The position numbers were made by a program, and so were the translations under genes. A model generated the notes under the pieces. It saw only the letters and a list, made by a program, of their open reading frames with translations, did no database searches and was not told the DNA's origin. From a virus, in IMG/VR virus record IMGVR_UViG_3300043621_000102, positions 1-44,629 of that record: 44,629 nt of DNA, one strand, 5' to 3'. How positions within the stretch are numbered: position 1 is the stretch's first letter; every line of letters begins with the position of its first letter. Positions 873 through 44,629 of this stretch are shown here, in pieces.

Positions 873-2245
873 GTCGTCACCGATATGAGTTCAGCGTCGC
901 TCAGTGTTCGTTTCCATCCTAAAACACCGCGCATACAACCGTTGATTTTCCATAAATCCAGTGTGGGACTATTGGAGCCAATCACAAGCCGCGTCGCGTT
1001 GAACGGGACGGCACTCCCCGCCCCCGCCGCGACAACCCCCGCCGCCGCACCGCGCCATTGCCCTCCCCCGTAGGCGAAGGCGGCTTTCTGAACGAGGCCG
1101 TTTCTCGGGCCGCCGGGGTTCACACCAAGCTGCGCCACACTTCCAACGGTCGCGCCGAGATAAATATAATCGCCGTTCAAATTAGCGATGAACGCCTGAT
1201 TAGCGGCCGTTGTGTCGTCCAGCGATAAAATTCCAGCCTGCCTGTCCGCCGGGGAATCATTCGGAACGATGAACTCAGCCTGGAAAGATCCGGCACTCGC
1301 GCCAAACCAACTGGCGTTCGTCGGCATCGACGCGATATCAGCCGCGCGTGTCACCGCCGCCGATGTCGTCGGAATATAGCTGGTCGCGAACGGGCCTCGT
1401 TCGATATCCGCGCCCCAGACATAAATCGTCTGTGCCGGGGTTCCGGTTTGCGCGGTGTCACGTAAATCAACACCAACGCAAAAATACCACGTCGCGGCCG
1501 TCAATGTCCCGGTGGTCAAGGTAAACCGTTGCCATGCCGTCGTGAGTATGCACTGCCGCCGATAATATGTGGCGTTATCCGGTGTCGTAAGCAGATAGAG
1601 ACGTTCTCCACCAACGACGCCTTTCATCCAGACACTGAAGGTATAAACGCCGGCCGCGATCGCCACGCCTTGCGCCCTCTCGCAGACGCTACCGGCGGCC
1701 GTCGCGACGGAATACTGCGCGCTCGCGGCGGTCATCGTTCCGTCCGGAGCGATTGTCTGGTTCGCCGTCATGATCAGATTGGTCGAAGCAAGAAAGCTCT
1801 GCCACGTCGCGTTCGCCAGATCACCGCTTTGCAACGCGATGTTCGTCCTTGCTTCCTCGATCAGCAGCCCACGTAACGATCCACCCGCGTAATCCCAGCG
1901 CGGCTGGTTGACCGCCGCCGTCTGGATCACGCCGGATGCGTCGGTGTATGTCGCGGTCGAGGCACGGGTGAACGTGACGCCGGGCGGCAGGCTGCCAGGG
2001 AACATGAAGTTGAGATCGAGCGTCATGCCGGGAGGGCCACCGCCGCCCGTGATGCCGGCGTCACTGTACTGTTGCGCTACCTGACGGGAGAAGTATTTGC
2101 ACCAGCCTCGTGGACTGACCGGGCCGATGACCTTGCCGCAGGCGCGGGGAGCGATGAAGAAACGGCAGTATCCGCATTTCTCCCGCCCGCCCGCGTCGGT
2201 GTAGCGCGCGGCGCTCTTGGCGACCCGGTGGACGACGAAGGACAT
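869..2245 (-). CDS. Tail fibre: four-Cys HiPIP-like N-terminus plus lectin-like (LamG-type) domain, copy 1
   Basis: 458 residues. Residues 24-49 hold Cys24, Cys27, Cys36 and Cys49 (CGYC, then AC, then GWC), a pattern like a minimal high-potential iron-sulfur site. A Gly-rich linker near residues 65-73 follows, then a block with TFTRASTATYTDASGV and RGLLIEEARTN that is common in phage tail proteins, two jelly-roll-like stretches, and a C-terminal concanavalin/LamG-like part ending in the usual WKRTLSDAEL pattern. It probably binds host surface glycans. Its start touches the stop of the adaptor gene, and its stop overlaps the next start as ATGA. The copy at 41081-42421 shares the first 130 or so residues almost exactly and then diverges. 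Metal binding is inferred from spacing alone. Confidence 0.75.
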   Translation of the reverse strand: MSFVVHRVAKSAARYTDAGGREKCGYCRFFIAPRACGKVIGPVSPRGWCKYFSRQVAQQYSDAGITGGGGPPGMTLDLNFMFPGSLPPGVTFTRASTATYTDASGVIQTAAVNQPRWDYAGGSLRGLLIEEARTNIALQSGDLANATWQSFLASTNLIMTANQTIAPDGTMTAASAQYSVATAAGSVCERAQGVAIAAGVYTFSVWMKGVVGGERLYLLTTPDNATYYRRQCILTTAWQRFTLTTGTLTAATWYFCVGVDLRDTAQTGTPAQTIYVWGADIERGPFATSYIPTTSAAVTRAADIASMPTNASWFGASAGSFQAEFIVPNDSPADRQAGILSLDDTTAANQAFIANLNGDYIYLGATVGSVAQLGVNPGGPRNGLVQKAAFAYGGGQWRGAAAGVVAAGAGSAVPFNATRLVIGSNSPTLDLWKINGCMRGVLGWKRTLSDAELISVTT

Positions 2246-2910
2246 CAGAACGATACCAGTTCAGCCCTGAACGGGGCTCCACTCATATCGCTCGATTGCT
2301 TCCACAAATTCGCCCGTGTCACCACCTGCTGGAACTGGGCATCGGCCTGGGCCGCGCGATCGTCATCCAGCTCGAACAGCGCGCCGTGTTTGATCACACC
2401 CCATAAATAGACCGCGTAGAGCTGTTCCAGGACCGGGTTGGTGTCGGACGGCAGCAGGAGCGGCTTTGGTTTCGCATACCACTCCATGATGACGACCTGC
2501 GGCAGCCAGAGCGGATCAGGCGGGTCGGGAAGGATCGGATGCGGCAGGAACTCGATGCAGTCCCCCGTCAGCCGGTAAGACGTACAGACCTGGCCGACCG
2601 CGCCGACGACGGCGCCCTCCTGCCAGGCACTGGACTGCCGCCCCACCCAGTGTCCGCTCCAGGCGTCCTTGAGCCGCAACATCTCGCCACTGGTGGCATC
2701 GCGGATCGACGCCATGGTGGCGAAGTCAGCCGGCAGCGAGATGTAGGCGCTGTCGATCGGCTGCGTGCCCGATGTGATCTGACATCGGGCGCGCAGGGTC
2801 TCGGCGATTTCCGTTTCGACCATCAGCACCCAGCCAGGGATCAGGCTGGCTAAATCTCTACGATTCAGCCAGTTCTGAACATCATCGATGAGTTGCTGAT
2901 AAGAGGCCAC
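2245..2910 (-). CDS. SU10-type head-tail adaptor protein, copy 1
   Basis: 221 residues. The N-terminus (MASYQQLIDDVQNWLNRRDL, then IPGWVLMVETEIAETLRARC) matches the phage adaptor family that sits under the portal in SU10-like podoviruses: a helical start followed by a beta-rich centre and a helical C-terminus with ELDDDRAAQADAQFQQVV. It should form the ring linking portal to tail. The neighbours fit, lying between capsid-proximal proteins and receptor-binding genes. A diverged homologue is at 42418-43086; N-terminal and C-terminal thirds are close and the centre differs most. The family call rests on motif recognition only. Confidence 0.75.
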   Translation of the reverse strand: MASYQQLIDDVQNWLNRRDLASLIPGWVLMVETEIAETLRARCQITSGTQPIDSAYISLPADFATMASIRDATSGEMLRLKDAWSGHWVGRQSSAWQEGAVVGAVGQVCTSYRLTGDCIEFLPHPILPDPPDPLWLPQVVIMEWYAKPKPLLLPSDTNPVLEQLYAVYLWGVIKHGALFELDDDRAAQADAQFQQVVTRANLWKQSSDMSGAPFRAELVSF

Positions 2911-3501
2911 CTACTTCTTGTCGTTCTTCTTGTCGGCCTTCTTGTCATCGTCATCATCGTGCTGACCGCGCGGCGGCGTGGTCGAGGTGGACTGCTGCGG
3001 GGCGGGATGCAGACCGGCGGCGACCGGCGGATCGTTCTCGCCAGGGGCCGGGCGATGTTGGCCCGCGCCACGCGCGGTCGCGTCCGCCGGCGGGGTCGGA
3101 TCGAACACCGGATTGCCGGGGGACTGGACGCCATCGGCGGTGTGGAAAGGCTGGTGGAGAGACTCCTCGGCGATCGTCCCCACCCTGATCCGCTCCTCCG
3201 CCGCCGCCATCGCGGCGGCCACCGGATCGTCGGCGTCGGGATAGAGCTTACCCAGGAGGGAGCGGTCGAAGCCATCGACCAGGACGGGTTTCAGCGGGCC
3301 GAGGGGTTTGATCTCGGTCATGCCGTCCTCGGTGCCGGGCAGCATCCCGATGCCGGCGAGCGGCACCGTGCCGACGCCCGCCGTGCTGCCGGGCGGCATG
3401 ATGCTGCCGCGGTTCATGTTGGGAACAGCGTCGGGGCCGATCCCCGGTGTGCGCCGCATCGGCGCCGGGGGTGGTGTGGTGGTCGAGGTTCCGCTGGCCA
3501 T
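2911..3501 (-). CDS. Pro/Thr-rich low-complexity virion-region protein, copy 1
   Basis: About 196 residues from the ATG at 3499-3501. An upstream ATG at 3564 would overlap the preceding gene, and the homologue at 43087-43698 begins exactly here (MASGTSTTTPPPAP), so I chose the shorter form. The preceding stop and this start form TGAAATG, implying coupling. A disordered Pro/Gly/Met N-terminal half leads to a short ordered core (GFDRSLLGKLYPDADDP, then AAEERIRVGTIAEESL) and a charged Asp/Lys tail. Function is unknown; the position between capsid and adaptor suggests a minor head or assembly role. Confidence 0.65.
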   Translation of the reverse strand: MASGTSTTTPPPAPMRRTPGIGPDAVPNMNRGSIMPPGSTAGVGTVPLAGIGMLPGTEDGMTEIKPLGPLKPVLVDGFDRSLLGKLYPDADDPVAAAMAAAEERIRVGTIAEESLHQPFHTADGVQSPGNPVFDPTPPADATARGAGQHRPAPGENDPPVAAGLHPAPQQSTSTTPPRGQHDDDDDKKADKKNDKK

Positions 3502-3502
3502 T

Positions 3503-3811
3503 TCAGAGGGTGCTCCGATCATCGGTTCGGAAGACGCTGTTGTCTGGATCATTGAGCCAGGCATTCAGCGCCTTCTCATCACTGGTAATCCCCAGTTTCT
3601 TCAGACGGTTCCAGATCACCAGCGGGATGCGGGCGACGTGGACGGTATCGCGCCTGACGTGGGGGTCGAAGTTCGCGGCGATCGTTTTGGCGCTCTCGGT
3701 GATCGCTTTGGTGTCCTGTGAGTGGACGAACAACAGTCCGCCGTCCTCCCGCTCCACCTCGGTGTGGCGGAGCGTGACAAGATCAAAACTCTCGTAGAGA
3801 AGGGCGCTCAT
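3503..3811 (-). CDS. Small conserved protein downstream of capsid, copy 1
   Basis: 102 residues. Its ATG overlaps the capsid stop as TAATG, so it is read as part of the capsid transcript. The sequence (SALLYESFDLVTLRHTEV, LLFVHSQDTKAITESAKTIA, HVARIPLVIWNRLKKLGI) looks like a compact alpha/beta protein. The homologue at 43698-44015 is similar throughout, but there an HNH gene lies between it and the capsid. I recognise no function; it could be a head-decoration or completion protein. Confidence 0.7.
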   Translation of the reverse strand: MSALLYESFDLVTLRHTEVEREDGGLLFVHSQDTKAITESAKTIAANFDPHVRRDTVHVARIPLVIWNRLKKLGITSDEKALNAWLNDPDNSVFRTDDRSTL

Positions 3812-4794
3812 TACTGGTTGAGGTCCGCGATCCAGGCATGGGCTTTTGGCGCGGTCGGACGGAGGGAGCCTTCGAACAAAACGGCGCCTTGTGTGTTATC
3901 ACCCGTCTTGGCGAAGTCCAGTTCGATTACGTCACGGCCCGGTAGCGGCGCCAGTTCCACATAGTCGGTGGAGACCAGCAGGATCTGGTTGGCGGGGCAG
4001 AAACGATCAGGCGCCAACTGGATCGTTCCGAAGTTCGTCCGGTAGACATCGACCGCGCCCATGATGGTCACTTCTTGCGACGACGTGACGTTCTGGATGT
4101 TCTGAGCCACCACCGCGTTGCCCGTGCCGCCCTGGGACAGCGTGGCGAAGTAGGCTTTGATGTTGCCCGACATGATGCCGAGCGTCGGCTTGCCGCCGGC
4201 CTGCCACGCCTGCTGCACGGCGGCGTCGAGCATCGCCAGCGTGAGGTCGCGCTTGGTGCCCGGCGTGCCCGCGTTGGACCCATCGCCGACCGGCATCACA
4301 CCCGCGCCGGTGCCGCGTGAGCCATTGGCGCAGTAACAGGGGAGGCCGCTCATGTGACGCGGATCGGTGATGGTGCGGACCAGCGGCGACGTGATGGCGA
4401 ACTCCAGGTCGCGCTTTACTTCCATCCCGCGCAGGATCAACTGGCGATCATATTCATCCTCGCCGCCGACCATATCGACCGAGCGCAGCGTGTTGGACAC
4501 GCCCACCGTGCGGACGAGGATCTGGGCGATGTTGTTCATGCGGACGGGTTTCGTCACCGCCTGCATACTGGCGGTGAAGCCCTCGGGCTGGGCGTTATCC
4601 GCCACGACCCCAAGCTCCTGGACGACCCATTCGGTGAGGATTTGTTTCGCTTCCACACTGGGAATGGCGGAAACAAGTGGTGTCTCGTCGGGGTCGATCT
4701 GGAAGATCACATCGCGGAGATCTTCCTTAACTCCAATGGCGGCCGGCTCTAAATACGTGTTCGCCGGCGCCGCGCCCATTGATCCAAGGGCCAT
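3811..4794 (-). CDS. Major capsid protein (SU10-type HK97 fold)
   Basis: 327 residues from ATG 4792-4794, preceded by a GGAGA ribosome site about nine bases upstream; longer upstream starts give an unlikely Pro-rich extension. Recognisable stretches are NTYLEPAAIGVKEDLRDVI, DPDETPLVSAIP, a long E-loop-like region with Gln/Asn, an EVKRDLEFAI helix, and a C-terminal beta domain with VDVYRTNFGTIQLAPDRF. These fit the SU10 major capsid family. It follows the scaffold gene and precedes the small head genes. The last 104 bases of the window equal the 3' end of this gene (3818-3921). Confidence 0.88.
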   Translation of the reverse strand: MALGSMGAAPANTYLEPAAIGVKEDLRDVIFQIDPDETPLVSAIPSVEAKQILTEWVVQELGVVADNAQPEGFTASMQAVTKPVRMNNIAQILVRTVGVSNTLRSVDMVGGEDEYDRQLILRGMEVKRDLEFAITSPLVRTITDPRHMSGLPCYCANGSRGTGAGVMPVGDGSNAGTPGTKRDLTLAMLDAAVQQAWQAGGKPTLGIMSGNIKAYFATLSQGGTGNAVVAQNIQNVTSSQEVTIMGAVDVYRTNFGTIQLAPDRFCPANQILLVSTDYVELAPLPGRDVIELDFAKTGDNTQGAVLFEGSLRPTAPKAHAWIADLNQ

Positions 4795-5025
4795 GTCGCA
4801 TGTCTCCAACGCTGGCGCGGCCCACGGGGGCTCGCGCGGTGAAACCAATAGAAAGGGGGGTTTCGCGTTGGTCTCGATCGGGCTTATGCGCGGTTGGTGC
4901 TTTCACACTCCGCGCGGCGCGACTGGCCTCGGGCGACGGCACTTCCCGCCGGCTGGTTGGTCCTGGGAGACTCCATGGGGCGACGGGTGTCAGGATTGAG
5001 ACAACCCGGTGTATTTGTCAAACAA
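4795..5025. other. Intergenic region between scaffold and capsid
   Basis: About 230 bases without a convincing gene. It holds the capsid ribosome site (RC of 4803-4807) and a short imperfect inverted repeat, GAAACC at 4841-4846 with GGTTTC at 4859-4864, whose flanks also partly pair. Such a hairpin could tune capsid relative to scaffold expression, but I see no clear promoter. Confidence 0.4.
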
Positions 5026-23280: not shown

Positions 23281-25310
23281 CCGACATCAACGACCTGCTG
23301 TTTCTGGATCTGGAAACACGCTCGACCGTCGATTTGCGGAAGACCGGCGCATACGTTTATGCGTCGGACCCTTCCACGACAGTCACCGTTGCCCGCCTGG
23401 CGATCGGCATGGAGGAGCCGTGGGAGTGGCGGCCGGGGCGAGAACTCCTCCCGAAATACCGCGATTACCTGATGAACAACGAAGTTGTCGCCCACAACGC
23501 GCAGTTCGAGCGGCTGCTGATCGAGGGCGTCCTCCACCCGCGCCACGGCTGGCCCCTGGTCGCGATCGATCGTTGGATCTGCACCATGGCCCGCGCCCGC
23601 GCCCAGGCCCTGCCCGCCAGCCTCGATGGGGCGGGGATGGCGCTCGGCTTGCCGATCAAGAAGGATGGCGACGGGTGGCGCCTCATGCTCCAGATGTGCA
23701 AGCCGAGGCGGATGGCGGACGGCTCGCTGGCGTGGTGGGAAGACGAGGACCGCATGGCCCGGTTGAGCGACTATTGCTCGACCGATGTGAAGGTGGAGCG
23801 TCAGGTCTGTCGCTCCACGGCCGCCTTGCCCCAGCCGGAACTAGATGTCTGGGATCTGACTGAGGCCATGAATGACAGAGGTGTGCGGTTCGATCATTCC
23901 TTTGTCCAGGCCGCGCGGATCGTCGCCGAAGAAACCCAGGCCCTGCTCGATAACGATATGCGGCTGCTGACTGTTGGCGTGGTCCGTAAGACTTCCGAGA
24001 TCGGTCTGCTCAAATCGTGGTTGATGAAGCGCGGCGTCGATCTGGCCCCACCTCCCGACCTCGCTCGCGAGGGTGAACTGCTCGATGATCTGGAAGAGGT
24101 CGAACCGGAAGAGGAGGTGATCCCTGATCTCCGCAGGAGGGATGTCCTGCGCCTGATCGCCGATCCCCGCGTGGGGTTGTTGGAGAAGAGTGTTCTCAAG
24201 ACCCGCCTGGAGGCGGGGAAGATATCGGTCAAAAAGCTCTACGCCATCCACGAGCGGTCGAACGCCGACGGCCGCGTGCGGGGTCTGCTCGGCTACCACG
24301 GGGCATCGACCGGCAGATACATCTCGCAAGGGTTGCAGGTGCAGAACTTCCCCCGCGACGTTGTCGCGGACTGGGAGGGCCACCGGGCGCTGCTCGACCA
24401 GGGCGCGGCGATGGTCGATGCCATCGCCGGCCCGCCGCTCGATGTCGTCTCGAAGATGTTGCGCGGCGCGATCATCCCCGCCGAGGGCCACGAGATCGCG
24501 GCGGGCGACTTCGCCTCGGTCGAGGCGGTGGGTGTGGCGTGGCTGGCGGGGCAGGATGATCTGGTCGAGGCGTTCCGCGCGAAGCGGAAAGTCTACGAGG
24601 AGATCGGCGCCAGGGTTTACGGCATCGATCCCGCCACCGTCACCAAGGACAGCCGCGCCCGTTTCGTCGGCAAAACATTGGTGCTTGGCTGCGGCTACCA
24701 GATGGGCTGGCATAAGTTCCGCGAGACCTGCATCGCCCAGGCGAGTGTCCTTCTCGCCCCGGAAGAGGCGGAACGCGCCGTTAACGTCTATCGCGGGACT
24801 TATGCCTGTATCCCGAAACTCTGGAACGACATGAACCAGGCGGCGATCGACGCCGTGCGTCATCCCGGTCAGGCGACGGCGGTGGCGGGCGGGCGCATTC
24901 GGTTTCGGATGGATCGCAAGTGGCTGCGGATGCGCCTGCCGAGTGGACGCTACATCTGGTATTCTCAACCCCTGATCGAAACGGGTCGTTTTGGCAACGA
25001 TTGCGTCTCGTATATGAGTGTTAATTCGCTAACAAAACGATGGGAACGCTGTCAGACCTACGGCGGGCGGCTGACGGAAAACGCCGTGCAGGGTCTGTGC
25101 AGGGATCTTCTTGTTCACGCCGCGCTGCGTCTCGAACGAGAAAACTATCGCCCATTAACCTTGGTCCATGACGAGATTATTTGCGAGCCCCAGATCGGTT
25201 TTGGGAGCGTTGAGGAGATGTGTTCTCTTATGAGCGAGTTGCCTGACTGGGCCTCGGGTTTTCCCCTGAGGGCCGAGGGCTCGCGCGGTCCGAGATATCT
25301 AAAGGGGTGA
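23268..25310 (+). CDS. Family A DNA polymerase with 3'-5' exonuclease
   Basis: 680 residues from GTG 23268-23270; an upstream in-frame start would overlap the tiny membrane gene. The exonuclease begins with LLFLDLETRST (Exo I, Asp-x-Glu). The polymerase part has GRYISQGLQVQNFPRD, motif A AAGDFASVEAVGVAWLAGQ, motif B RFVGKTLVLGCGYQMGW and motif C LTLVHDEIICE near residue 630. It is the replicative enzyme of the phage. The 3' end overlaps the ribbon-helix-helix gene on the other strand by 83 bases. Confidence 0.92.
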   Translation: MGILTDINDLLFLDLETRSTVDLRKTGAYVYASDPSTTVTVARLAIGMEEPWEWRPGRELLPKYRDYLMNNEVVAHNAQFERLLIEGVLHPRHGWPLVAIDRWICTMARARAQALPASLDGAGMALGLPIKKDGDGWRLMLQMCKPRRMADGSLAWWEDEDRMARLSDYCSTDVKVERQVCRSTAALPQPELDVWDLTEAMNDRGVRFDHSFVQAARIVAEETQALLDNDMRLLTVGVVRKTSEIGLLKSWLMKRGVDLAPPPDLAREGELLDDLEEVEPEEEVIPDLRRRDVLRLIADPRVGLLEKSVLKTRLEAGKISVKKLYAIHERSNADGRVRGLLGYHGASTGRYISQGLQVQNFPRDVVADWEGHRALLDQGAAMVDAIAGPPLDVVSKMLRGAIIPAEGHEIAAGDFASVEAVGVAWLAGQDDLVEAFRAKRKVYEEIGARVYGIDPATVTKDSRARFVGKTLVLGCGYQMGWHKFRETCIAQASVLLAPEEAERAVNVYRGTYACIPKLWNDMNQAAIDAVRHPGQATAVAGGRIRFRMDRKWLRMRLPSGRYIWYSQPLIETGRFGNDCVSYMSVNSLTKRWERCQTYGGRLTENAVQGLCRDLLVHAALRLERENYRPLTLVHDEIICEPQIGFGSVEEMCSLMSELPDWASGFPLRAEGSRGPRYLKG

Positions 25311-25440
25311 GCGCCTTTTCGATAAGGGCTCGTAGCCACTCATGGCGAGGTATGTTTCCTCGCGTGGCATCGATGCGCGCCAATGTCCCCCCGGCAACGC
25401 GGACCTGAATTCGTTCTGGAACCGTTAATTTCTTAGCCAT
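25228..25440 (-). CDS. Ribbon-helix-helix DNA-binding protein
   Basis: 70 residues from ATG 25438-25440. KLTVPERIQVRVAGGTLARI forms the ribbon strand, then DATRGNIPRHEWLRALIEKA gives the two helices of an RHH fold. It is divergent from the array locus, and the 60 bases between hold repeated TACGGTATT words, so it is the likely repressor of itself and of the array transcript. The C-terminal tail is short and basic. It overlaps the polymerase 3' end on the opposite strand. Confidence 0.72.
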   Translation of the reverse strand: MAKKLTVPERIQVRVAGGTLARIDATRGNIPRHEWLRALIEKALTPLDISDRASPRPSGENPRPSQATRS

Positions 25441-25450
25441 GAGACAGAAA

Positions 25451-25497
25451 TACGGTATTCGGTATTGACGATCAAGCCTGGAGTGGTATACGGTATT
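25451..25497 (+). promoter_or_regulatory. Predicted array promoter with repeated TACGGTATT operator-like sites
   Basis: TTGACG at 25465-25470, a 16-base spacer and TATACG at 25487-25492 give a plus-strand promoter whose start falls near 25499. TACGGTATT occurs at 25451-25459 and 25489-25497, with CGGTATT at 25460-25466, so these words flank and overlap both promoter boxes. This is a typical arrangement for a repressor, here most simply the divergent RHH protein. Confidence 0.55.
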
Positions 25498-25500
25498 TTT

Positions 25501-25519
25501 CTTGGCGTGGTGCGCCAAG
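25501..25519 (+). ncRNA. Hairpin at the predicted 5' end of the array transcript
   Basis: CTTGGCG (25501-25507) and CGCCAAG (25513-25519) form a perfect seven-base stem with loop TGGTG. It begins one or two bases after the predicted start site and is followed nine bases later by the first array units. A 5' hairpin could protect or nucleate a protein on the array RNA (inference). Confidence 0.45.
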
Positions 25520-25528
25520 GATGGCTGA

Positions 25529-25857
25529 GGCCGGGGCAGGGCCGGGGCAGGGCCGGGGCAGGGCCGGGGCAGGGCCGGGCAGGGTTGGGTTTGGTCTGGT
25601 TCGGCGGGGTAAGCCGGGGCAGGGCCTGGTAGGGTCGGGCAAGGTCAGGTTTGGCCGGGTTCGGCAAGGCATGGCGCGGTTAGCCCTGGTGAGATTAGGC
25701 GCGGTCTGGTTGGGCAAGGCGCGGCAGGGCGCGGTTGGGTTGAGTACGGCCTGGCAGGGCCAGGCAGGCATAGGTGAGGCGCGGTAAGGCCAGGTTTGGT
25801 TTGCCAGGGTGTGGCTTGGTTTGGCCCGGCCTGGTGCGGTGCGGTTTGGTGTGGCTT
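25529..25857 (+). repeat. GGYNN pentanucleotide array 1
   Basis: The array opens with four copies of an 11-base unit GGCCGGGGCAG (25529-25572), which is GGCCG, an extra G, then GGCAG. From 25573 to 25857 there are 57 strict five-base steps; by hand count 51 carry GGC or GGT at the start and the other two positions vary freely. The few exceptions are single-base changes such as GCC or GAT, and none shifts the register. It ends 16 bases before the ATG of the Cas7-like gene, so it would be its 5' untranslated region. Frames through it are by-products of the composition. Confidence 0.85.
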
Positions 25858-25873
25858 CTTTTAGGAACGAGCA

Positions 25874-26491
25874 ATGAACAAAGTTGTCAAAGTAAATGAT
25901 GATGTAACGAATGGCGGTCAGGCGTCGGTTGAAACGGAGCTGCCCTACACGGCGACCGTGAAAATAAGAGGGACGAGTGACGTTCTGTTTCACAGATGGA
26001 ACGCTGACGCCGTCGATACCAAGGCGAAGGCGGCGAAAAACAGCGCCGCCAAGAAGACCGACGATGTCGAGTCTTATGTCTACCGGGACGAGAAGGGAAT
26101 GATTTGCATCCCAGGGGAGTATCTTCGCGGAGCGATCATTCTCGCCAGTAAGTTTCGGCAAGACCCCCGCAGCCCGCGAAAAAGCGCCATGGATTTATTC
26201 AAGGCGGCGGTTGTCTCCCTGACACCACTGGCTTCTCTGGGCACGAAATCATGGGATTACGAGGATCGTCGTCGGGTCGTTATTCAGCGTTCCGGGATCA
26301 ACAGGATCCGTCCCGCCATGCGTACTGGTTGGACGTGTGAGTTTCGTTTTCTCGTCACGCTTCCAGAATATGTCAGCCAGGATCTCCTCCTGGAGGTTAC
26401 ATCTCTCGCTGGCAGGATCGGCGGGGTTGGTGATTTTAGACCAACATATGGACGATTTGCAGTTGTCAGCTTCAAAGTTTCCGAAGCATGA
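25874..26491 (+). CDS. Cas7/RAMP-like phage protein embedded between GGYNN arrays
   Basis: 205 residues with AGGA upstream. A beta strand (YTATVKIRGTSDVLFHRW) is followed by a Lys/Ala-rich helix (VDTKAKAAKNSAAKKTDD), then ICIPGEYLRGAIILASKF, KSAMDLFKAAVVSLTPL, YEDRRRVVIQRSGI and a closing GRIGGVGDFRPTYGRFAVVS. IPGEYLRGAI recalls the IPGSSLKGA motif of Csm3/Cmr4, and the final Gly-rich loop recalls the RAMP G-loop; size and strand order also fit. Homologues occur in phages as hypothetical proteins. There is no other Cas gene here. RNA binding is therefore a hypothesis. Arrays flank it on both sides. Confidence 0.7.
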   Translation: MNKVVKVNDDVTNGGQASVETELPYTATVKIRGTSDVLFHRWNADAVDTKAKAAKNSAAKKTDDVESYVYRDEKGMICIPGEYLRGAIILASKFRQDPRSPRKSAMDLFKAAVVSLTPLASLGTKSWDYEDRRRVVIQRSGINRIRPAMRTGWTCEFRFLVTLPEYVSQDLLLEVTSLAGRIGGVGDFRPTYGRFAVVSFKVSEA

Positions 26492-26502
26492 TAAAAATAC
26501 AC

Positions 26503-27027
26503 GGCCTGGAAAGGTCTGGCCCGGTTAGGCGTGCCGGGGCCGGGTAAGGTTCGGTCCGGTTTGGTGCGGTATGGTCCGCGTTTTAACGAAACGGAACCAG
26601 TCGTTCCGTTTCTTTAAGGCGCGGTTAGCTTCGGCGTGGCTCGCCATGGCCGGCATGGGCATGATTTGCTTAGGTTGGGTCCGGCACGGTCCTATGTGGC
26701 GTGGCCTGGCGTGGTGTGGCCTGCCCCGGCATGGCGGGGTGGGGCGGGGTAAGGCACGGCTCGGTCAGGTATGGCGTGGCGGGATTCGGCTAGCCGTGGT
26801 TTGGCGCGGTGTGGCAAGGCTGGGTCAGGTGGGGTTCGGTGTGGCATGGCAAGGTGGGGTCCGCCCCGGCGTGGTTTGGCGTGGTCTGGTGTGGTTAGCC
26901 ACGGTTTGACGCGGTCCGGTGAGGTTGGGCATGGCAAGCTATGGCAAGGTGGGGTCCGCCCCGGTGTGGTGTGCTCGGGCAGGGCACGGCGTGGCAGGGT
27001 CCGCTCTGGTGGGGCAAGGTATGGTAG
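26503..27027 (+). repeat. GGYNN pentanucleotide array 2
   Basis: Starting 12 bases after the Cas7-like gene stop, 105 five-base steps run to 27027 in one unbroken register. By hand count 79 begin GGC or GGT; eight of the exceptions are the embedded hairpin, the rest are mostly one-base changes such as GCC and GCT. Some longer words recur (for example GGCAAGGTGGGGTCCGCCCC at 26848 and 26943), suggesting local duplication in multiples of five. Array 1 is in the same phase modulo five. Long frames on both strands here are artefacts. Confidence 0.85.
26588..26615 (+). terminator. Hairpin embedded in array 2 (possible terminator)
   Basis: GAAACGGAAC (26588-26597), loop CAGTC, and GTTCCGTTTC (26603-26612) form a perfect ten-base stem followed by TTT. 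The insert replaces eight pentamer positions without changing the register. It may end or protect the transcript of the Cas7-like gene; the T run is short, so termination would be weak. Confidence 0.5.
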
Positions 27028-27038
27028 GGGCCTTTGGT

Positions 27039-27230
27039 ATGATGGTCCCGGATCTCTTGAACACGTTGCGCCGCCGGATTGAGGAACTGGAGTTGCTTGT
27101 ACAGGATCTGGAGCGCCAGAATGAGTGGCTACGAACACAAACACAGAGGGAAACACACGATGAAACAATTGTTGATGACCACGGCCATCATCACCGGGGC
27201 GCTGTTTTTTCAGCCAACGGCCCGCGCTGA
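27039..27230 (+). CDS. Small coiled-coil protein
   Basis: 63 residues beginning just after array 2, with AGGGG eight or so bases upstream. The N-terminal half is a strong leucine coiled coil (PDLLNTLRRRIEELELLVQD, then LERQNEWLRTQTQ); the rest overlaps the PEP-CTERM gene in another frame and is His-rich. It may be a genuine small protein or only a leader. I recognise no family. Confidence 0.4.
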   Translation: MMVPDLLNTLRRRIEELELLVQDLERQNEWLRTQTQRETHDETIVDDHGHHHRGAVFSANGPR

Positions 27231-27903
27231 CATCATCTCGACGCTGGGTTACACGGCCAACGCCAATACCTCGGCGCTGTCGCTGATCGCGGTGCCACCT
27301 CCAGGGAACCAGCCGTTGAATACCCCCTGCCTCATCTGCGGCACGAACCAACCGCAGCAGCCGGTTGGGTTCGGCTATAACAACTACCAGCAGGGCGGCA
27401 ACCAGACGCTGTTCAGCGATTTCTCCTCGGCGACCACCACGACCCTGGGCGAAGACACGCAGGGCACGCCATATCTGGTCAGCTTCCTACGGGCGTTCCT
27501 CATCTCGCAACTGGACCTGAATGGCCAGTTGAACGTCGGCATCGACGTGAATACCGCCACGGGCGCGGGGCCTGAAGTGCTGCAACGCTTCGTCGTGCTT
27601 GATGTCGTCAACAAGACGATCCTCGCTGACTACAACCCGGCCGGCGGCACGCCGCTGCCGACCGCGAATAACGGCACCGGCTTCCCGGACTACGTGCTGA
27701 GCGGCTTCAACATCGACCGGAACGATCTGTCGCCCAACAGCCAGATCGAATTCTACGCCCGATGGAGCAACGCATCGGATGGCGCTGAGAGCTTCTTCCT
27801 GGTCCCCGTTCCAGGGCAGCAGGACGTGCCGGAGCCCGCCTCGCTGGCGGTGCTTGGTATGGGGCTGCTTGGACTCGGCATGGTGAAGCGCCGCCGGGCC
27901 TGA
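27160..27903 (+). CDS. PEP-CTERM exported protein
   Basis: 247 residues from ATG 27160-27162, with AGAGGG nine bases upstream. A signal peptide (MKQLLMTTAIITGALFFQ, then ARA cleavage) leads to a beta-rich, Thr/Asn/Gly-rich domain, and the C-terminus is a complete PEP-CTERM sorting tail: VPEPASLAVLGMGLLGLGMV followed by KRRRA. In bacteria such tails are cut by exosortase and the proteins sit in the exopolysaccharide matrix. No exosortase is in the window, so the host must supply it. It is probably a lysogeny-independent moron that alters the host surface (inference). Confidence 0.88.
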   Translation: MKQLLMTTAIITGALFFQPTARADIISTLGYTANANTSALSLIAVPPPGNQPLNTPCLICGTNQPQQPVGFGYNNYQQGGNQTLFSDFSSATTTTLGEDTQGTPYLVSFLRAFLISQLDLNGQLNVGIDVNTATGAGPEVLQRFVVLDVVNKTILADYNPAGGTPLPTANNGTGFPDYVLSGFNIDRNDLSPNSQIEFYARWSNASDGAESFFLVPVPGQQDVPEPASLAVLGMGLLGLGMVKRRRA

Positions 27904-39316: not shown

Positions 39317-39378
39317 GCGCGCGACGCCTCGGCGGCCTCGGGGTCCATCGGCGGATCGGGGTAGAGGGCCTGGCTCAT
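39313..39378 (-). CDS. 21-residue bridging peptide
   Basis: MSQALYPDPPMDPEAAEASR plus Ala, then stop. The ATG overlaps the tailspike stop and its stop overlaps the next ATG, each as ATGA. The perfect double junction supports translation, perhaps only to keep ribosomes moving between the two larger genes. Confidence 0.45.
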   Translation of the reverse strand: MSQALYPDPPMDPEAAEASRA

Positions 39379-41084
39379 GAGGTTGAATCCGTGACGAGCC
39401 CGTAAGCCGCCAGTGCGGTCAGCAACGATGCGAGCGCGGCGTTTCCCGCCTTCGCGCCTGTCACGGTTGGCTTCGCGATGGGATTGCCCGTGAGGCCCAG
39501 CGTTGGCGTCGGCCCGTTGCCGTTCCAACTGATGAAACTGGTTCCGGAATAACCCGCCCGCACAGGCCCCGCGCCCGGGGCCCCGGCCACTCCATTGACC
39601 GAAACAGGACGTTGCGTGACATCCGGCTCGTTGGAAATGTCCGTCGAAAACAACTCGCTGTAGCGCGGTGTCGTGAACCCGACACCGTAATTCGTCGTCA
39701 CGTTGATGTCGCTGAACTGATGACCATAACCGGCGACCGATATCAGTGGCGCCCCGGCCGCCTGCGCGCCATCGAACGTCAGACCGCTAAACTCGCAATC
39801 CTGAAAACTGCCGAGGTAGCCGACAATCCGCGTGCTCGCGGCGATCGATCCAGACGCCGAAGCGTTGGCACGCGCGTCACATGTCACGACAGCCGCGTAA
39901 ATACCGGTCGTGCTGACGACGCTAAGTATCTTGTAAGCGCCTGTCAGCGTCAGGCCGTTGGCGACAAGAGGCCCACCCGCGCCCGCGTCGATGTTAACAT
40001 AGTTTCCAACACCGCTGTCCGTCCCGGATGCGAAAGTCACCGTCAGGACATTGCTGCCGGAAGCCGTCGCGACTTTGTTCGCCCCCACCTCCGGCGCGAA
40101 GTTGCTAAAGAACCCGCCAAAGATGACGGGATTGTTCCACGCCGCGCCGTCCATCGCGACACAACTCACGTTGTGGGCTTTGATGCGCCCGCCGAGACCA
40201 CGACCGACGATGAACTTGTTCGTGGCGCCGCCGGTCGCGACGATCATCACGTTTTCCATCAGCACGTCCGAAACAACGGAGCCGTCGCCGCCGCTGTCCA
40301 GAAAGAACCCAATACCATTATTCAGCCAAATATTGATGTTCGTGGCCACGTATTGCCACGACCTGCCGATACTGGCGGTGGTGCCGATGCCTTGCAGGTT
40401 GAACGCGCCGCCATTACCGCCACCCGGAAACATAACGACATCGATGTCACTGACCTTGACCCTGGTCGTTCCTGCCCAGCAATCAAGTATCTGCATGACG
40501 TTATCGCCGATACAGTCTCGCATCGTCACTCTGTCGCAGCTAATGCAGCGAACGCCCGTGCATGACGCGCTCGTGGTCGCCCACATCCGTAGTTCCGCCA
40601 CATCCAGATTCTTCACGAACAGGAACGACGCGGTATTCGCCGCCTGCGTCGTGTAGTCGAACCCCAGGCCCTTGATTGCTATGTCGGTATCGTAGACGCC
40701 ACCGGGTGGCGTGGTTGGGCCTGTATATGGAATGGTTGCCGAATAAAGATAACCGGCAAAAACAGTTGGCGCGTCGCCGGAATATCCCGTGAGCCCGTTC
40801 GGCCTGATGATGGAAACCTCGCGCCCCGCTCCGGTGACACGGGTATGGCTGGGCAGCACGATGGGAAGCCCCGAAACCTTATACGTGCCCGCCGGGAAGA
40901 ACACTTCCTTGCCGCCCGATCCGATCGCGGCGCGGATCGCCGCCGTATCATCCGTCACGCCATCGCCGGTCGCGCCGAAGCTCAGGACATTTGTCGAACC
41001 CGACAGCGCGCCCGCGTTGGCGATAGCCTCGTTCAGGTCGGTGGCCAACAGAGCATCGCCGATCGCCCAGGGGTATCCAGTCAT
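39375..41084 (-). CDS. Tailspike with pectate-lyase-like beta-helix
   Basis: 569 residues. A 25-residue anchor is followed by NVLSFGATGDGVTDDTAAIR and GKEVFFPAGTYKVSGLPIVL, the classic entry to the right-handed beta-helix of Pectate_lyase_3. The helix continues for about 350 residues (CTGVRCISCDRVTMRDCIGD, GGRIKAHNVSCVAMDGAAWN), then a beta-rich C-terminal part. It should bind and perhaps depolymerise host capsule or O-antigen. Catalytic residues cannot be assigned by eye. The other haplotype has a different protein behind the same anchor (1-872). Confidence 0.8.
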   Translation of the reverse strand: MTGYPWAIGDALLATDLNEAIANAGALSGSTNVLSFGATGDGVTDDTAAIRAAIGSGGKEVFFPAGTYKVSGLPIVLPSHTRVTGAGREVSIIRPNGLTGYSGDAPTVFAGYLYSATIPYTGPTTPPGGVYDTDIAIKGLGFDYTTQAANTASFLFVKNLDVAELRMWATTSASCTGVRCISCDRVTMRDCIGDNVMQILDCWAGTTRVKVSDIDVVMFPGGGNGGAFNLQGIGTTASIGRSWQYVATNINIWLNNGIGFFLDSGGDGSVVSDVLMENVMIVATGGATNKFIVGRGLGGRIKAHNVSCVAMDGAAWNNPVIFGGFFSNFAPEVGANKVATASGSNVLTVTFASGTDSGVGNYVNIDAGAGGPLVANGLTLTGAYKILSVVSTTGIYAAVVTCDARANASASGSIAASTRIVGYLGSFQDCEFSGLTFDGAQAAGAPLISVAGYGHQFSDINVTTNYGVGFTTPRYSELFSTDISNEPDVTQRPVSVNGVAGAPGAGPVRAGYSGTSFISWNGNGPTPTLGLTGNPIAKPTVTGAKAGNAALASLLTALAAYGLVTDSTS

Positions 41085-42421
41085 GTCGTCACCTGCTGCA
41101 TCTCGGCGTCGGACAACACGCGGGGCCAGTATTGAACCCGGCGGATGATGCCGCTCATGCTTTCAATCGCGACGCCTGGATTAGCTCCACCGATACCGAC
41201 CCCCGCTGTCGCGAGTGTCGCGAACCCTGTCTGTGCTCCTGTTCCAATACCGCCACCGTTAAGGCAGATTTTGCCGGTGCCGCCGCCTTGAACAGACACG
41301 CCTTTTGACACCGCACCAAGAACAACCGTGTTTATGGTGTTAATCTGGCCACCGCCGGAGGAAATAAAGAACCCGGAACTGTTCACCCATAACGGGTCTT
41401 CACCAGTCCCGCCGTGGTTGCCGATAACGCGAGGGCTCGTAAGGCCGAAAGCTGTATTATCGATGAACTCGGCGAACCATGTGCCGCCGGGAGACGCGAA
41501 CCAGGGAGCCATGTTCGCGGGGGCGATGAAGCAGTTATCGAAAGCCCGCGTGACCGGCGACGAGACCGTGTAGATCACGGATGTCGGGAAGGTCCCCGGT
41601 TCCACCTGGCCACCCCAGGCGTAAATCGTCTGCGCGGGTGTACTGGCCTGCGTCGCATCGCGTAAATCGGTGCCTGTTTCAAAAAACCACGGCGCCGCCG
41701 TCAGGTTTGGCGTGACGAAGGAAAACCGCTGCCATGCCGTGGTCAGTATCGCGGCGGCTTTGTAATATGTCGCGCCATCGGGTGTCGCGCAGATGTAGAC
41801 CCGTTCGCCACCCGCGTTACCACGCAACCAGAGACTAAATGAATAAGCGGCGGCACTTAATGTCGCCGACTGGGAGAACACACTGAAAGTCCCGGCGCCC
41901 GAAACAGCGGGGTAAACCACCCTCGCGGCGGTGAGCGTGCCGTCCGGCGCCGTCACCTGATTGGCCGTCACGACGGGTTGCACGCTACCGAACAACCCCC
42001 ACAGGGCAATATTGCCGCTGTTTAGAATGACATTCGTCCGCGCCTCCTCGATCAGCAGCCCGCGCGCTTCCCATCTGGGTTGATTGACCGCCGCCGTCTG
42101 GATCACGCCGGATGCGTCGGTGTATGTCGCGGTCGAGGCGCGGGTGAAGGTGACGCCGGGGGGCATGTTTCCGGAGGACATGAAATCGAGCGCCAGCGTG
42201 GCGCCAGGAGGGCCACCGCCGCCCGTGATGCCGGCGCCACTGTATTGTTGAGCCACCTGACGGCTGAAATACTTGCACCAGCCTTGTGGACTGACGGGGC
42301 CGATGACCTTGCCGCAGGCGCGAGGGGCGACGAAGAAGCGGCAGTATCCGCACTTCTCCCGCCCGCCCGCGTCGGTGTAGCGCGCGGCGCTTTTAGAGAC
42401 GCGATGAACGACGAAGCTCAT
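41081..42421 (-). CDS. Tail fibre: HiPIP-like N-terminus plus lectin-like domain, copy 2
   Basis: 446 residues. The N-terminal 130 residues are almost identical to the copy at 869-2245, including Cys24, Cys27, Cys36 and Cys49. After RGLLIEEARTN the sequences diverge to a different binding domain ending VQYWPRVLSDAEMQ. It overlaps the adaptor and tailspike genes by four bases on each side. This is a textbook mosaic receptor-binding gene. Confidence 0.75.
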   Translation of the reverse strand: MSFVVHRVSKSAARYTDAGGREKCGYCRFFVAPRACGKVIGPVSPQGWCKYFSRQVAQQYSGAGITGGGGPPGATLALDFMSSGNMPPGVTFTRASTATYTDASGVIQTAAVNQPRWEARGLLIEEARTNVILNSGNIALWGLFGSVQPVVTANQVTAPDGTLTAARVVYPAVSGAGTFSVFSQSATLSAAAYSFSLWLRGNAGGERVYICATPDGATYYKAAAILTTAWQRFSFVTPNLTAAPWFFETGTDLRDATQASTPAQTIYAWGGQVEPGTFPTSVIYTVSSPVTRAFDNCFIAPANMAPWFASPGGTWFAEFIDNTAFGLTSPRVIGNHGGTGEDPLWVNSSGFFISSGGGQINTINTVVLGAVSKGVSVQGGGTGKICLNGGGIGTGAQTGFATLATAGVGIGGANPGVAIESMSGIIRRVQYWPRVLSDAEMQQVTT

Positions 42422-43086
42422 CCAAACGATACCAGTTCAGATCGTAACGGTGCGCCACCGTAATCAGATTGTTGCTTCCAGAGGTTGGCCCTGGTCACCA
42501 CCTGCTGGAACTGCGCGTCGGCCTGGGCCGCGCGATCGTCGTCCAGCTCGAACATGGCGCCATACTTACAAAGACCGAACAGGTAGACGCCGTAGAGGGC
42601 TTCCAGGACCGTGTTGGTGTCGGACGGCAGATCCAGGTGCTTTGGCTTCGCATACCAACCCATGATGACCTGCTGCCAAAGATGCGTCGGGTCAGGCGGA
42701 TTGGGGATGATCGGGTGCGGGAGGAACTCGATGCAGTTCCCCTTCAGCCGATACGCGGTGCAGACCTGTCCAACAGCCCCTACGACCGCGCCCTCTTGCC
42801 ACGCACTGGACTGTCGCCCCACCCAGTGCCCTGACCATTCATCCTTCAGCTTCAGCAGCTCGCCCGATATGGCGTCCCTGATCGATTCCATCTGGGCGAA
42901 GTCATCGGGAAGCGTGATCTCGGCGGCGTCGATGTCCTGCTCGCCGAAGGTGACCATGCACCTGGCGCGCAGGGTCTCGGCGATTTCCGTTTCGACCATC
43001 AGCACCCAGCCAGGGATCAGGCTGGCCAAATCCCTACGATTCAGCCAGTTCTGAACATCGTCGATGAGTTGCTGGTAAGAGGCCAC
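42418..43086 (-). CDS. SU10-type head-tail adaptor protein, copy 2
   Basis: 222 residues, homologous to 2245-2910. The first 40 residues are identical; the centre differs (FGEQDIDAAEITLPDDFAQM here against SGTQPIDSAYISLPADFATM) with conserved WSGHWVGRQSSAWQEGAVVG. The C-terminus keeps the DDDRAAQADAQFQQVVTRAN helix. As a copy of one structural ring protein, it argues for two haplotypes rather than two genes in one virion. Confidence 0.75.
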   Translation of the reverse strand: MASYQQLIDDVQNWLNRRDLASLIPGWVLMVETEIAETLRARCMVTFGEQDIDAAEITLPDDFAQMESIRDAISGELLKLKDEWSGHWVGRQSSAWQEGAVVGAVGQVCTAYRLKGNCIEFLPHPIIPNPPDPTHLWQQVIMGWYAKPKHLDLPSDTNTVLEALYGVYLFGLCKYGAMFELDDDRAAQADAQFQQVVTRANLWKQQSDYGGAPLRSELVSFG

Positions 43087-43698
43087 CTACTTCTTGTCGT
43101 TCTTCTTGTTGGCCTTCTTGTCGTCATCCTTGTCGTCATCGTCGTCGGTGACGGCCGTTCGCGGCGGCGTGGTCGAGGTGGACTGCTGCGGGGCGGGATG
43201 CAGACCCCCTGCTACCGGCGGGTCGTTCTCGCCGGGGGCCGGGCGATGTTGGCCCGTGCCGCGCGCGGTCGCGTCCGCGGGTGGGGTCGGATCGAACACC
43301 GGATTGCCGGGGGACTGGACGCCATCGGCGGTGTGGAAAGGCTGGTGGAGAGACTCTTCGGCGATCGTCCCCACCCGGATCCGCTCCTCCGCCGCCGCCA
43401 TCGCGGCCGCCGCGGGGTCGTCGGCGTCAGGATAGAGCTTGCCCAGGAGAGAGCGGTCGAAGCCGTCCACCAGGACGGGTTTCAACGGGCCAAGGGGTTT
43501 GATCTCGGTCATGCCGTCCTCGGTGCCGGGCAGCATCCCGATGCCGGCGAGCGGCACCGTGCCGACGCCCGCCGTGCTGCCGGGTGGCATGATGCTGCCG
43601 CGGTTCATGTTGGGAGTGGTGGCGGCGTCGGGGCCGATCCCCGGTGTGCGCCGCATCGGCGCCGGGGGTGGTGTGGTGGTCGAGGTTCCACTGGCCAT
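43087..43698 (-). CDS. Pro/Thr-rich low-complexity virion-region protein, copy 2
   Basis: 203 residues, nearly identical to 2911-3501 apart from small insertions (DAATTPNMNRG and a longer Asp/Lys tail). Its GGAAGG ribosome site lies upstream of the same ATG, which supports the start chosen for copy 1. Confidence 0.68.
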   Translation of the reverse strand: MASGTSTTTPPPAPMRRTPGIGPDAATTPNMNRGSIMPPGSTAGVGTVPLAGIGMLPGTEDGMTEIKPLGPLKPVLVDGFDRSLLGKLYPDADDPAAAAMAAAEERIRVGTIAEESLHQPFHTADGVQSPGNPVFDPTPPADATARGTGQHRPAPGENDPPVAGGLHPAPQQSTSTTPPRTAVTDDDDDKDDDKKANKKNDKK

Positions 43699-44015
43699 TA
43701 GAGTTTCCTTCCGTCATCGGTTCTGAACAGGCGGCATTCGCGACTGTCCAGAACGAGGTTCAGCATTTTCTGATCTTCGGTAACCCCGAGTTTTCGCCAC
43801 TGGTTCCAGGTCACCAACGGAACCCGCGCCACGTGCGTCCAACTCTGCTTGCGCGCGTTGTGCGGGTCGAAGTTCGACGCGATGGTTTTGGCGCTCTCCA
43901 CGATCGCCCTGGTATCCTGCGAGTGAACGAACAGCAGCGTGCCGTCGCTCTCTCGCTCCAGTTCAGTGTGGCGAAGCGTCGTGGGGTTGTGGCTCTCGTA
44001 GAGAAGGGCGCCCAT
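43698..44015 (-). CDS. Small conserved protein downstream of capsid, copy 2
   Basis: 105 residues, homologous to 3503-3811 with the same ordered pattern (GALLYESHNPTTLRHTEL, LLFVHSQDTRAIVESAKTIA, HVARVPLVTWNQWRKLGV). The ATG overlaps the HNH stop as TAATG, the junction that in copy 1 belongs to the capsid stop. This shows that the HNH gene was inserted cleanly between capsid and this gene. Confidence 0.72.
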   Translation of the reverse strand: MGALLYESHNPTTLRHTELERESDGTLLFVHSQDTRAIVESAKTIASNFDPHNARKQSWTHVARVPLVTWNQWRKLGVTEDQKMLNLVLDSRECRLFRTDDGRKL

Positions 44016-44482
44016 TAGGCTTTCTTCCGGTAGTAGAAGGCAAGCGCCCGCTCGTTAGAACATGTTTTGCACGAGCGCATACCACGGTAGAGGTAGGTGT
44101 TCTCAGGCGTGTACTCATGCCCCGAGGGGCAATGCGTCTTCACGGCGTTCAGAGAGGCACGGCCCCTGAACCGGCCCTTGGCCACCATGTCAGTGACATT
44201 GTCCCGTTGCGTCCCCAGGAACAGGTGATCTGGATTGCAGCAGGAAGGCACGTCACATCGATGACAAACACGAAGGCCGTCAGAGATCGGACCAAAGAAC
44301 TCTTCCCAGGCAAGGCGATGGGTTTTGACGGTTTTTCCTTTTCGTCCGCCAATCCTGACGTTGCCATAGCCGTCACTGTTAAGTGACCCACTAAATAGCC
44401 AGCAGTCAGTATCAACGTCCCTTACGAGACGTTCCCGCCAAGGTATCGGTGCTTTTCCCATCTCGGCAGTGTGTATCATCAT
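44015..44482 (-). CDS. HNH homing endonuclease B
   Basis: 155 residues. DTDCWLFSGSLNSDGYGNVR, then HRLAWEEFFGPISDGLRVCH and CHRCDVPSCCNPDHLFLG form the HNH core, with the following THCPSGHEYTPENTYLYRG segment. It occupies the capsid-downstream junction in this copy and is absent from the matching junction at 3811. The start may be ATG 44480 or a few codons downstream. Confidence 0.85.
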   Translation of the reverse strand: MMIHTAEMGKAPIPWRERLVRDVDTDCWLFSGSLNSDGYGNVRIGGRKGKTVKTHRLAWEEFFGPISDGLRVCHRCDVPSCCNPDHLFLGTQRDNVTDMVAKGRFRGRASLNAVKTHCPSGHEYTPENTYLYRGMRSCKTCSNERALAFYYRKKA

Positions 44483-44518
44483 GGCGGACCAATCAATAAA
44501 GATAACGTTACGATATCG

Positions 44519-44629
44519 TCACTGATTGAGGTCCGCGATCCAGGCATGGGCTTTTGGCGCGGTCGGACGGAGGGAGCCTTCGAACAAAACGGCGCCTTGT
44601 GTGTTATCACCCGTCTTGGCGAAGTCCAG
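44519..44629 (-). CDS. Major capsid protein, 3' end of second copy (partial)
   Basis: The last 36 residues of a capsid gene, ending AHAWIADLNQ with TGA at 44519-44521 instead of the TAA at 3811-3813. Bases 44526-44629 are identical to 3818-3921. The gene is cut by the window end. Synteny and identity show the same genomic position seen twice. Confidence 0.8.
   Translation of the reverse strand: MDFAKTGDNTQGAVLFEGSLRPTAPKAHAWIADLNQ

Follow-up and report, generated by a model that had tools for sequence, protein, structure and literature searches.

The window, by which we mean the whole 44,629-nucleotide stretch analysed here (IMG/VR virus record IMGVR_UViG_3300043621_000102), carries a gene for a 205-residue protein that is flanked on both sides by runs of pentameric units in which a GGY triplet is fixed and a dinucleotide, NN, varies. 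The upstream neighbours are replication genes, encoding an Enc34-type single-stranded DNA-binding protein and a family A DNA polymerase, and the phage carries capsid, portal and adaptor genes of the SU10 type. The features of the locus are collected in Table 1. VIPR systems, described in a 2026 preprint (PMC13142463), consist of a phage RAMP protein, Vipr, and vrRNAs of 9–16 YNNGG units with fixed GGY and variable NN, which carry a structured tail. The NN pairs recognise DNA with one base skipped per step, mostly the codon wobble base, and the resulting repression is programmable, the guides being directed against satellites, prophages and further VIPR systems (PMC13142463). The loci typically have a vap accessory gene, which the preprint does not call obligatory, and the systems are sorted into seven types, the SUSP1 system being type II (PMC13142463). 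Literature listings returned no second paper on the VIPR system.

Table 1 Features of the vipr locus (positions are those of the window).
Feature	Position	Strand	Description
Upstream GGY/NN array	25563..25857	+	59 pentamers in one phase; target searches negative
vipr gene	25874..26491	+	205-residue single-RAMP protein with a Csm3/Cas7-like predicted fold; homologue of SUSP1 Vipr
Own-vipr site matching the target	26429..26461	+	Codons 186–196; differs from the guide at 4 of its 22 positions
Guide part of the compact downstream vrRNA	26503..26557	+	11 units, NN = CT AA CT CC TA GT GG CG AA TC CC
3' part of the compact vrRNA	26558..26617	+	Last four GGY units, 10-bp hairpin and short T-rich stretch; candidate vrRNA tail
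Long downstream GGY/NN array	26618..27027	+	82 pentamers in one phase; first ~55 bases (11 pentamers) degenerate
Candidate second guide	26708..26757	+	Sense reading V V L P (I/M) G G G (K/N) T, like a DEAD-type helicase ATP-binding motif
Possible hairpin closing the long array	27027..27049	+	GGGGCC/GGTCCC; weak, z +0.61, no better than shuffles

The two peptides for which the first-pass annotation had singled out the open reading frame at 25874–26491, ICIPGEYLRGAI and GRIGGVGDFRPTYGRF, are both present in it exactly as quoted. A single-sequence phmmer search of the PDB matched the protein to chain 36pp_D ('SUSP1 Vipr protein') with an E value of 3.1e-7, and an hmmsearch with a 51-sequence Vipr profile matched the same chain with an E value of 4.6e-13 over profile positions 28–199. 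In both searches 36pp was the sole PDB sequence match at E values up to 10, and the profile gave no sequence-level match to Csm3. The protein belongs to a PHROGs family of unknown function (phrog_4652, E 2.2e-16), while Pfam, NCBIfam and PADLOC hold no family for it. Residues P80, G180, G184 and the stretch VGDFRPTYGR (V185–R194) are invariant in 51 aligned relatives, although the conservation of that stretch is biased by the fetching of relatives with six peptide patterns, VGDFRPTY among them. The Lys-rich AKAAKNSAAKK (residues 51–61) is conserved across the family. The nearest relative in a named phage, at 63% identity, is that of Phage DSL-LC04, and SUSP1, SUSP2, Moogle and related phages have a relative at ~27% identity over 63% of the protein. 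The DSL-LC04 protein (WJZ48083.1; OR003939.1, 19965–20582, L072 in our set) is annotated as a helix-turn-helix transcriptional regulator, an annotation that the homology does not support.

An AlphaFold2 model of Vipr computed from 51 sequences has a mean pLDDT of 87.6 and a pTM of 0.80. The top Foldseek match in the PDB is Csm3 (6ifl_F, E 5.4e-7, TM 0.56), followed by further Csm3 and type VII Cas7 chains, and a second structure aligner gave a Z score of 12.7 to the type VII Cas7 chain 8yhe_F (rmsd 4.1 over 162 residues), spanning residues 22–205. Judged by this model, the Vipr of this phage is a RAMP of the Cas7 type with a Csm3-like fold. RAMP-like motifs had been proposed from the sequence, and the comparison with Cas7 and Csm3 bears the proposal out: a RAMP core extends over residues 22–205, and the likeness of the Gly-rich stretch to the RAMP G-loop holds at the level of the fold. 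No Cas family was detected among the 31 open reading frames of the window scanned with Pfam and a tandem-repeat scan found no CRISPR repeat-spacer array. The absence of Cas families means that the protein is a RAMP outside CRISPR. The common fold over residues 22–205 joins Vipr to the Csm3 and Cas7 proteins of CRISPR types III-A and VII, whereas the phage locus has no detected CRISPR array or Cas partner (Cas10, Cas5) and the Vipr profile finds no Csm3 sequence.

The first-pass annotation had further taken the protein for a Cas7 relative lacking Cas10, Cas5 and crRNA. The part about Cas partners agrees with the Pfam scan, but a guide-less mode of action is not supported: vrRNA-type arrays flank the gene, and a natural target can be identified for one guide. 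The accompanying idea of an ancestor-like form is the thesis of the VIPR preprint (PMC13142463). A Cas7 or Csm3 derived from CRISPR, its partners lost, that acts without a guide or binds scavenged crRNA would fit with Csm3 and type VII Cas7 being the closest solved folds. We regard such a protein as very improbable here, because the only PDB sequence match is Vipr and not Csm3, GGY/NN arrays adjoin vipr in 66 of 68 relatives, and one guide matches a target that occurs in natural DNA.

A single five-base phase is shared by 53 of the 63 GGY triplets within 25500–25870, by 14 of 14 within 26490–26620 and by 66 of 70 within 26600–27050. The best ten-unit run is complete (10/10), as against at most 6/10 in 200 Markov simulations that preserve the base-to-base transitions. 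The compact vrRNA has 15 GGY units (26503–26577), the last four of which match no known vipr. The hairpin that follows it folds with a z score of −2.83, with 2 of 200 shuffles as good, and no tail was resolved inside the long arrays. A simple terminator scan called no plus-strand terminator at the compact vrRNA, though the fold shows a 10-bp hairpin, and Rfam gave nothing above the gathering score in 25200–27200. Within the long downstream array a 30-base element containing GGGG-TCCG-CCCC occurs twice (26846–26875 and 26941–26970; 97% identity, 95 bases apart) and may be a short internal tail separating vrRNAs.

Family-wide, 363 of 1898 inner units have something other than GGY, most commonly GCY, with 145 units; a change of the second G to C is therefore a common variant of the unit. 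We also considered GCY units as mini-hairpins marking vrRNA ends. Six in the window looked paired, but across the family fully paired flanks were found for 22 of 145, equal to what unrelated offsets give (17–26 of 145), and the candidate was rejected.

The IMG/VR scan yielded 70 vipr loci, two of them short fragments, and the genome_contigs collection yielded five MAG contigs; 74 loci have a usable open reading frame and 68 have 400 bases on both sides. At least six of eight in-phase GGY units lie within 400 bases of vipr in 66 of these 68 loci, whereas a single one of 337 pairs of control stretches taken from these loci reaches six, near-identical contigs included. All eight units are in phase in 31 of the 68, and the two loci below six are L018 and L026. 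The layouts vary: L052 and L053 have tidy vrRNAs of 10–17 units with a repeated tail, and L027 has a single long array of 725 bases. Ordinary GC-rich microsatellites of low complexity, without any role as guides, could explain part of the upstream region, which is a plain 11-base minisatellite (GGCCGGGGCAG, 5.2 copies at 25529–25584, 5' of the upstream array and out of GGY phase), and would suit long arrays that have no known targets. This origin is nonetheless barely conceivable for the arrays themselves, in which GGY is fixed, NN varies and the phase is held over hundreds of bases; they stand beside vipr at nearly every locus and almost never in the control pairs, and the codon-phased match to vipr described below survives a permutation control.

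In the neighbourhoods compared, SUSP1 Vap1 has no homologue beyond that of SUSP itself, and the positions directly beside vipr have no small plus-strand gene in common. In relatives the neighbours of vipr include DUF669, RusA and DEAD-type helicase genes. Arrays of the same GGY/NN kind also occur on the opposite strand, ~3.3–4.3 kb upstream of vipr in L002 and L004 and 147–683 bases upstream of it in L048. The five genome_contigs matches lie in MAGs whose phyla are unrelated, and errors of binning may account for them; the gene was found in 1 of 76 genomes of one order, that one being the MAG itself, and a plasmid collection gave three weak partial matches.

Read with a one-base skip, the compact guide (26503–26557) is antisense to codons for G-(D/E)-(F/L)-R-P-T-Y-G-(R/S)-(F/L)-(R/S), which are the G-loop codons of Vipr, and the skipped base is the codon wobble position of the vipr target. 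It fits eight vipr loci with 1 mismatch of 22 (L002–L005, L036, L039, L040 and L062, some near-identical) and many more with 2, whereas the best fits under skips of 0, 2 and 4 bases have 7, 6 and 6 mismatches. When 1000 unit-permuted guides were compared with the 70 vipr genes, none reached 1 mismatch; the best had 4 and the mean best was 7.2. At up to 3 mismatches the guide matches 40 of 50 related records (50 of 79 loci) and the backward pattern none of the 50. Many of these targets come from loci chosen for carrying vipr, a bias from which the scan of the whole viral_contigs collection (2.9 million) is free. In that scan all 22 fixed bases of the 11-unit guide had no exact match, and the 20-base exact pattern occurred in 14 stretches, five in records already fetched and some near-identical; all 14 lie inside vipr open reading frames that align to this Vipr over 78–204 residues.

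The skip rule was also examined by searching 2.6 Mb of related phage DNA, cleared of array targets, for matches to 1776 ten-unit guides. A skip of 1 gave 28 matches with at most 1 mismatch of 20, and skips of 0, 2 and 4 gave 4, 0 and 1; these came from 6, 2, 0 and 1 distinct guide windows, respectively; most of the 28 belong to the window's compact guide and some targets are counted twice in overlapping pieces. When all guides were set against the 70 vipr genes at a skip of 1, five guide windows had at most 2 mismatches, compared with 0–1 in six permutation rounds, and skips of 0, 2 and 4 gave 2, 0 and 0 windows. From these sequence comparisons, the vipr targets of this clade appear to fit the one-base-skip rule. 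Both skip-0 windows come from one L053 guide (4800–4864), which matches the antisense strand of L029 vipr contiguously at 23 of its first 24 bases and does better on the vipr set than any of 400 permuted guides. With 1776 guides and several skip rules tried and one gene matched, this match is probably due to chance. Among other guides of the clade, those of L021 and of L015/L109 match the 3' end of relatives' vipr genes with 2 mismatches. A distal vrRNA-like array in L024 (8150–8220, ~2.1 kb downstream of vipr) matches, with a one-base skip, DUF669 genes of other phages; its guide fits the DUF669 gene beside vipr in other phages at 10 places, each with no more than 2 mismatches in 20.

For the long arrays, local search and five patterns in viral_contigs gave no confirmed target. 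The candidate second guide at 26708–26757 has its best local match in VVIPTGGGKT of the L014 helicase (2 mismatches of 20), which is no better than the background of other skips. Its exact 20-base pattern is absent from viral_contigs, its 16-base core occurs there in 16 stretches, none of which extends into the flanking units, and, with up to 1 mismatch allowed, none of 76 genomes of one order contains it. With no full match in viral_contigs or the 76 genomes, the helicase was rejected as a target and retained as a lead only. Three further 8-unit patterns from the long arrays occur in 5, 4 and 22 stretches of viral_contigs, and since none extends in the flanks these matches are at chance level. 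These three patterns also provide a yardstick for untargeted sequence, giving scattered chance matches where the compact guide gives 14 of 14 in vipr.

The phage's own vipr reads GGT GAT TTT AGA CCA ACA TAT GGA CGA TTT GCA over codons 186–196. Its mismatches arise from AGA at R189 and CGA at R194, each from the other Arg codon family than the guide reads, and from Ala in place of Ser; at R189 the guide reads CGN. Of the 583 Arg codons in 17 large open reading frames of this phage, 18 are AGA. We infer from the sequence that the mismatches would protect the phage's own vipr, that is, that they serve self-avoidance. Partial self-regulation by the compact vrRNA is possible. In its full form this alternative holds that the compact vrRNA is a self-regulator limiting its own Vipr and that other phages' vipr genes match it only through sequence conservation. 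The vrRNA does sit directly 3' of its own vipr gene, which fits 18 of 22 guide positions, a level at which permuted guides do not do better (an average of 7.2 mismatches at best, and a minimum of 4). We nevertheless consider self-regulation as the main role unlikely, since eight loci fit better, with 1 mismatch, 14 stretches match at 20 of 20 bases, and R189 carries a rare Arg codon precisely where the guide reads CGN.

Aiming at rivals, with the own gene spared, is the reading we prefer. In a more tentative proposal, to which we give somewhat less than an even chance, the locus would belong to a branch of VIPR that dispenses with vap and consists of Vipr and guide arrays alone, in which guides are aimed at the G-loop codons of rivals' vipr and synonymous Arg codons (AGA/CGA for CGN/AGR) mark self from non-self. 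Arg codons would suit this purpose because synonymous changes evade a wobble-skipping code only between codon families that are distinct at base 1 or 2, as the Arg families are.

Taken together, these data make it very probable that this phage, whose capsid and portal genes are of the SU10 type, carries a VIPR system here, with the compact vrRNA aimed at the vipr of rivals. The open reading frame at 25874–26491 is a Vipr homologue, a single small RAMP with a G-loop; flanking GGY/NN arrays are present, the compact vrRNA with its 15 units falling within the 9–16 of the preprint and the long arrays having 59 and 82 pentamers; no vap gene was found next to vipr. The system shares with SUSP1 VIPR (36pp, PMC13142463) a homologous phage-borne Vipr, GGY/NN vrRNAs on both sides and one-base-skip targets with the wobble base skipped, and the hairpin after the compact vrRNA is a candidate for the 3' structured part. 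It differs from SUSP1 in that its clade has neither vap1 nor another conserved small gene beside vipr, in its very long uninterrupted arrays besides one compact vrRNA, in its frequent GCY units, and in a Vipr identity of only ~27% over 63% of the protein. The P. fulva prophage VIPR, by the preprint's description (PMC13142463), has some vrRNAs that target other VIPR systems, as the compact guide does here. Phage DSL-LC04, whose Vipr is 63% identical, likewise has GGY/NN arrays upstream of the gene, but upstream only and with longer non-array spacers. This kind of system has been known since the 2026 preprint, and the locus appears new as judged against the preprint's main text, by which its layout, without vap and with long arrays beside a compact vrRNA, cannot be placed among the types.

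Starting from the homology, predicted fold, arrays and controlled target match demonstrated here, a mechanism can be outlined in which expression, RNP assembly, DNA binding and repression are assumed by analogy with the SUSP1 and P. fulva systems (PMC13142463). The single-domain Vipr would presumably coat the transcripts of the flanking GGY/NN arrays, holding the GGY triplets while the NN pairs read double-stranded DNA in codon register and skip the wobble base at each step. The target-bound Vipr RNP would then block transcription of the rival's gene. The compact vrRNA (26503–26617), reading the antisense strand, would be aimed at the most conserved stretch of other phages' vipr, the G-loop codons, so that the phage would disarm its competitors' VIPR systems. 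Its own vipr would be set apart by its 4 mismatches in 22, of which the choice of Arg codons accounts for two. The same system as SUSP1 VIPR is hereby recovered in environmental phages far from SUSP1, starting from RAMP-like protein motifs alone. The matches add sequence-level support, with permutation and whole-collection controls, for the one-base-skip code and for the targeting of vipr by vipr, and the target site offers a direct test ground for self/non-self discrimination by synonymous codons.

Further observations concern the remainder of the window. Its ends, 1893–3921 and 42069–44629, repeat each other at 83% identity, rising to 99% over the last 109 bases (3813–3921 and 44521–44629), and structural genes such as the SU10-type adaptor are present twice at the record ends; together these features suggest a circular genome assembled from two strains. 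Directly 3' of the long array lies a gene with a PEP-CTERM sorting motif (27148–27900, Pfam E 1.3e-6), unusual-looking cargo for a phage. Finally, a tail-spike-like protein encoded at 39378–41084 combines pectate-lyase/epimerase and endosialidase N-terminal domains.
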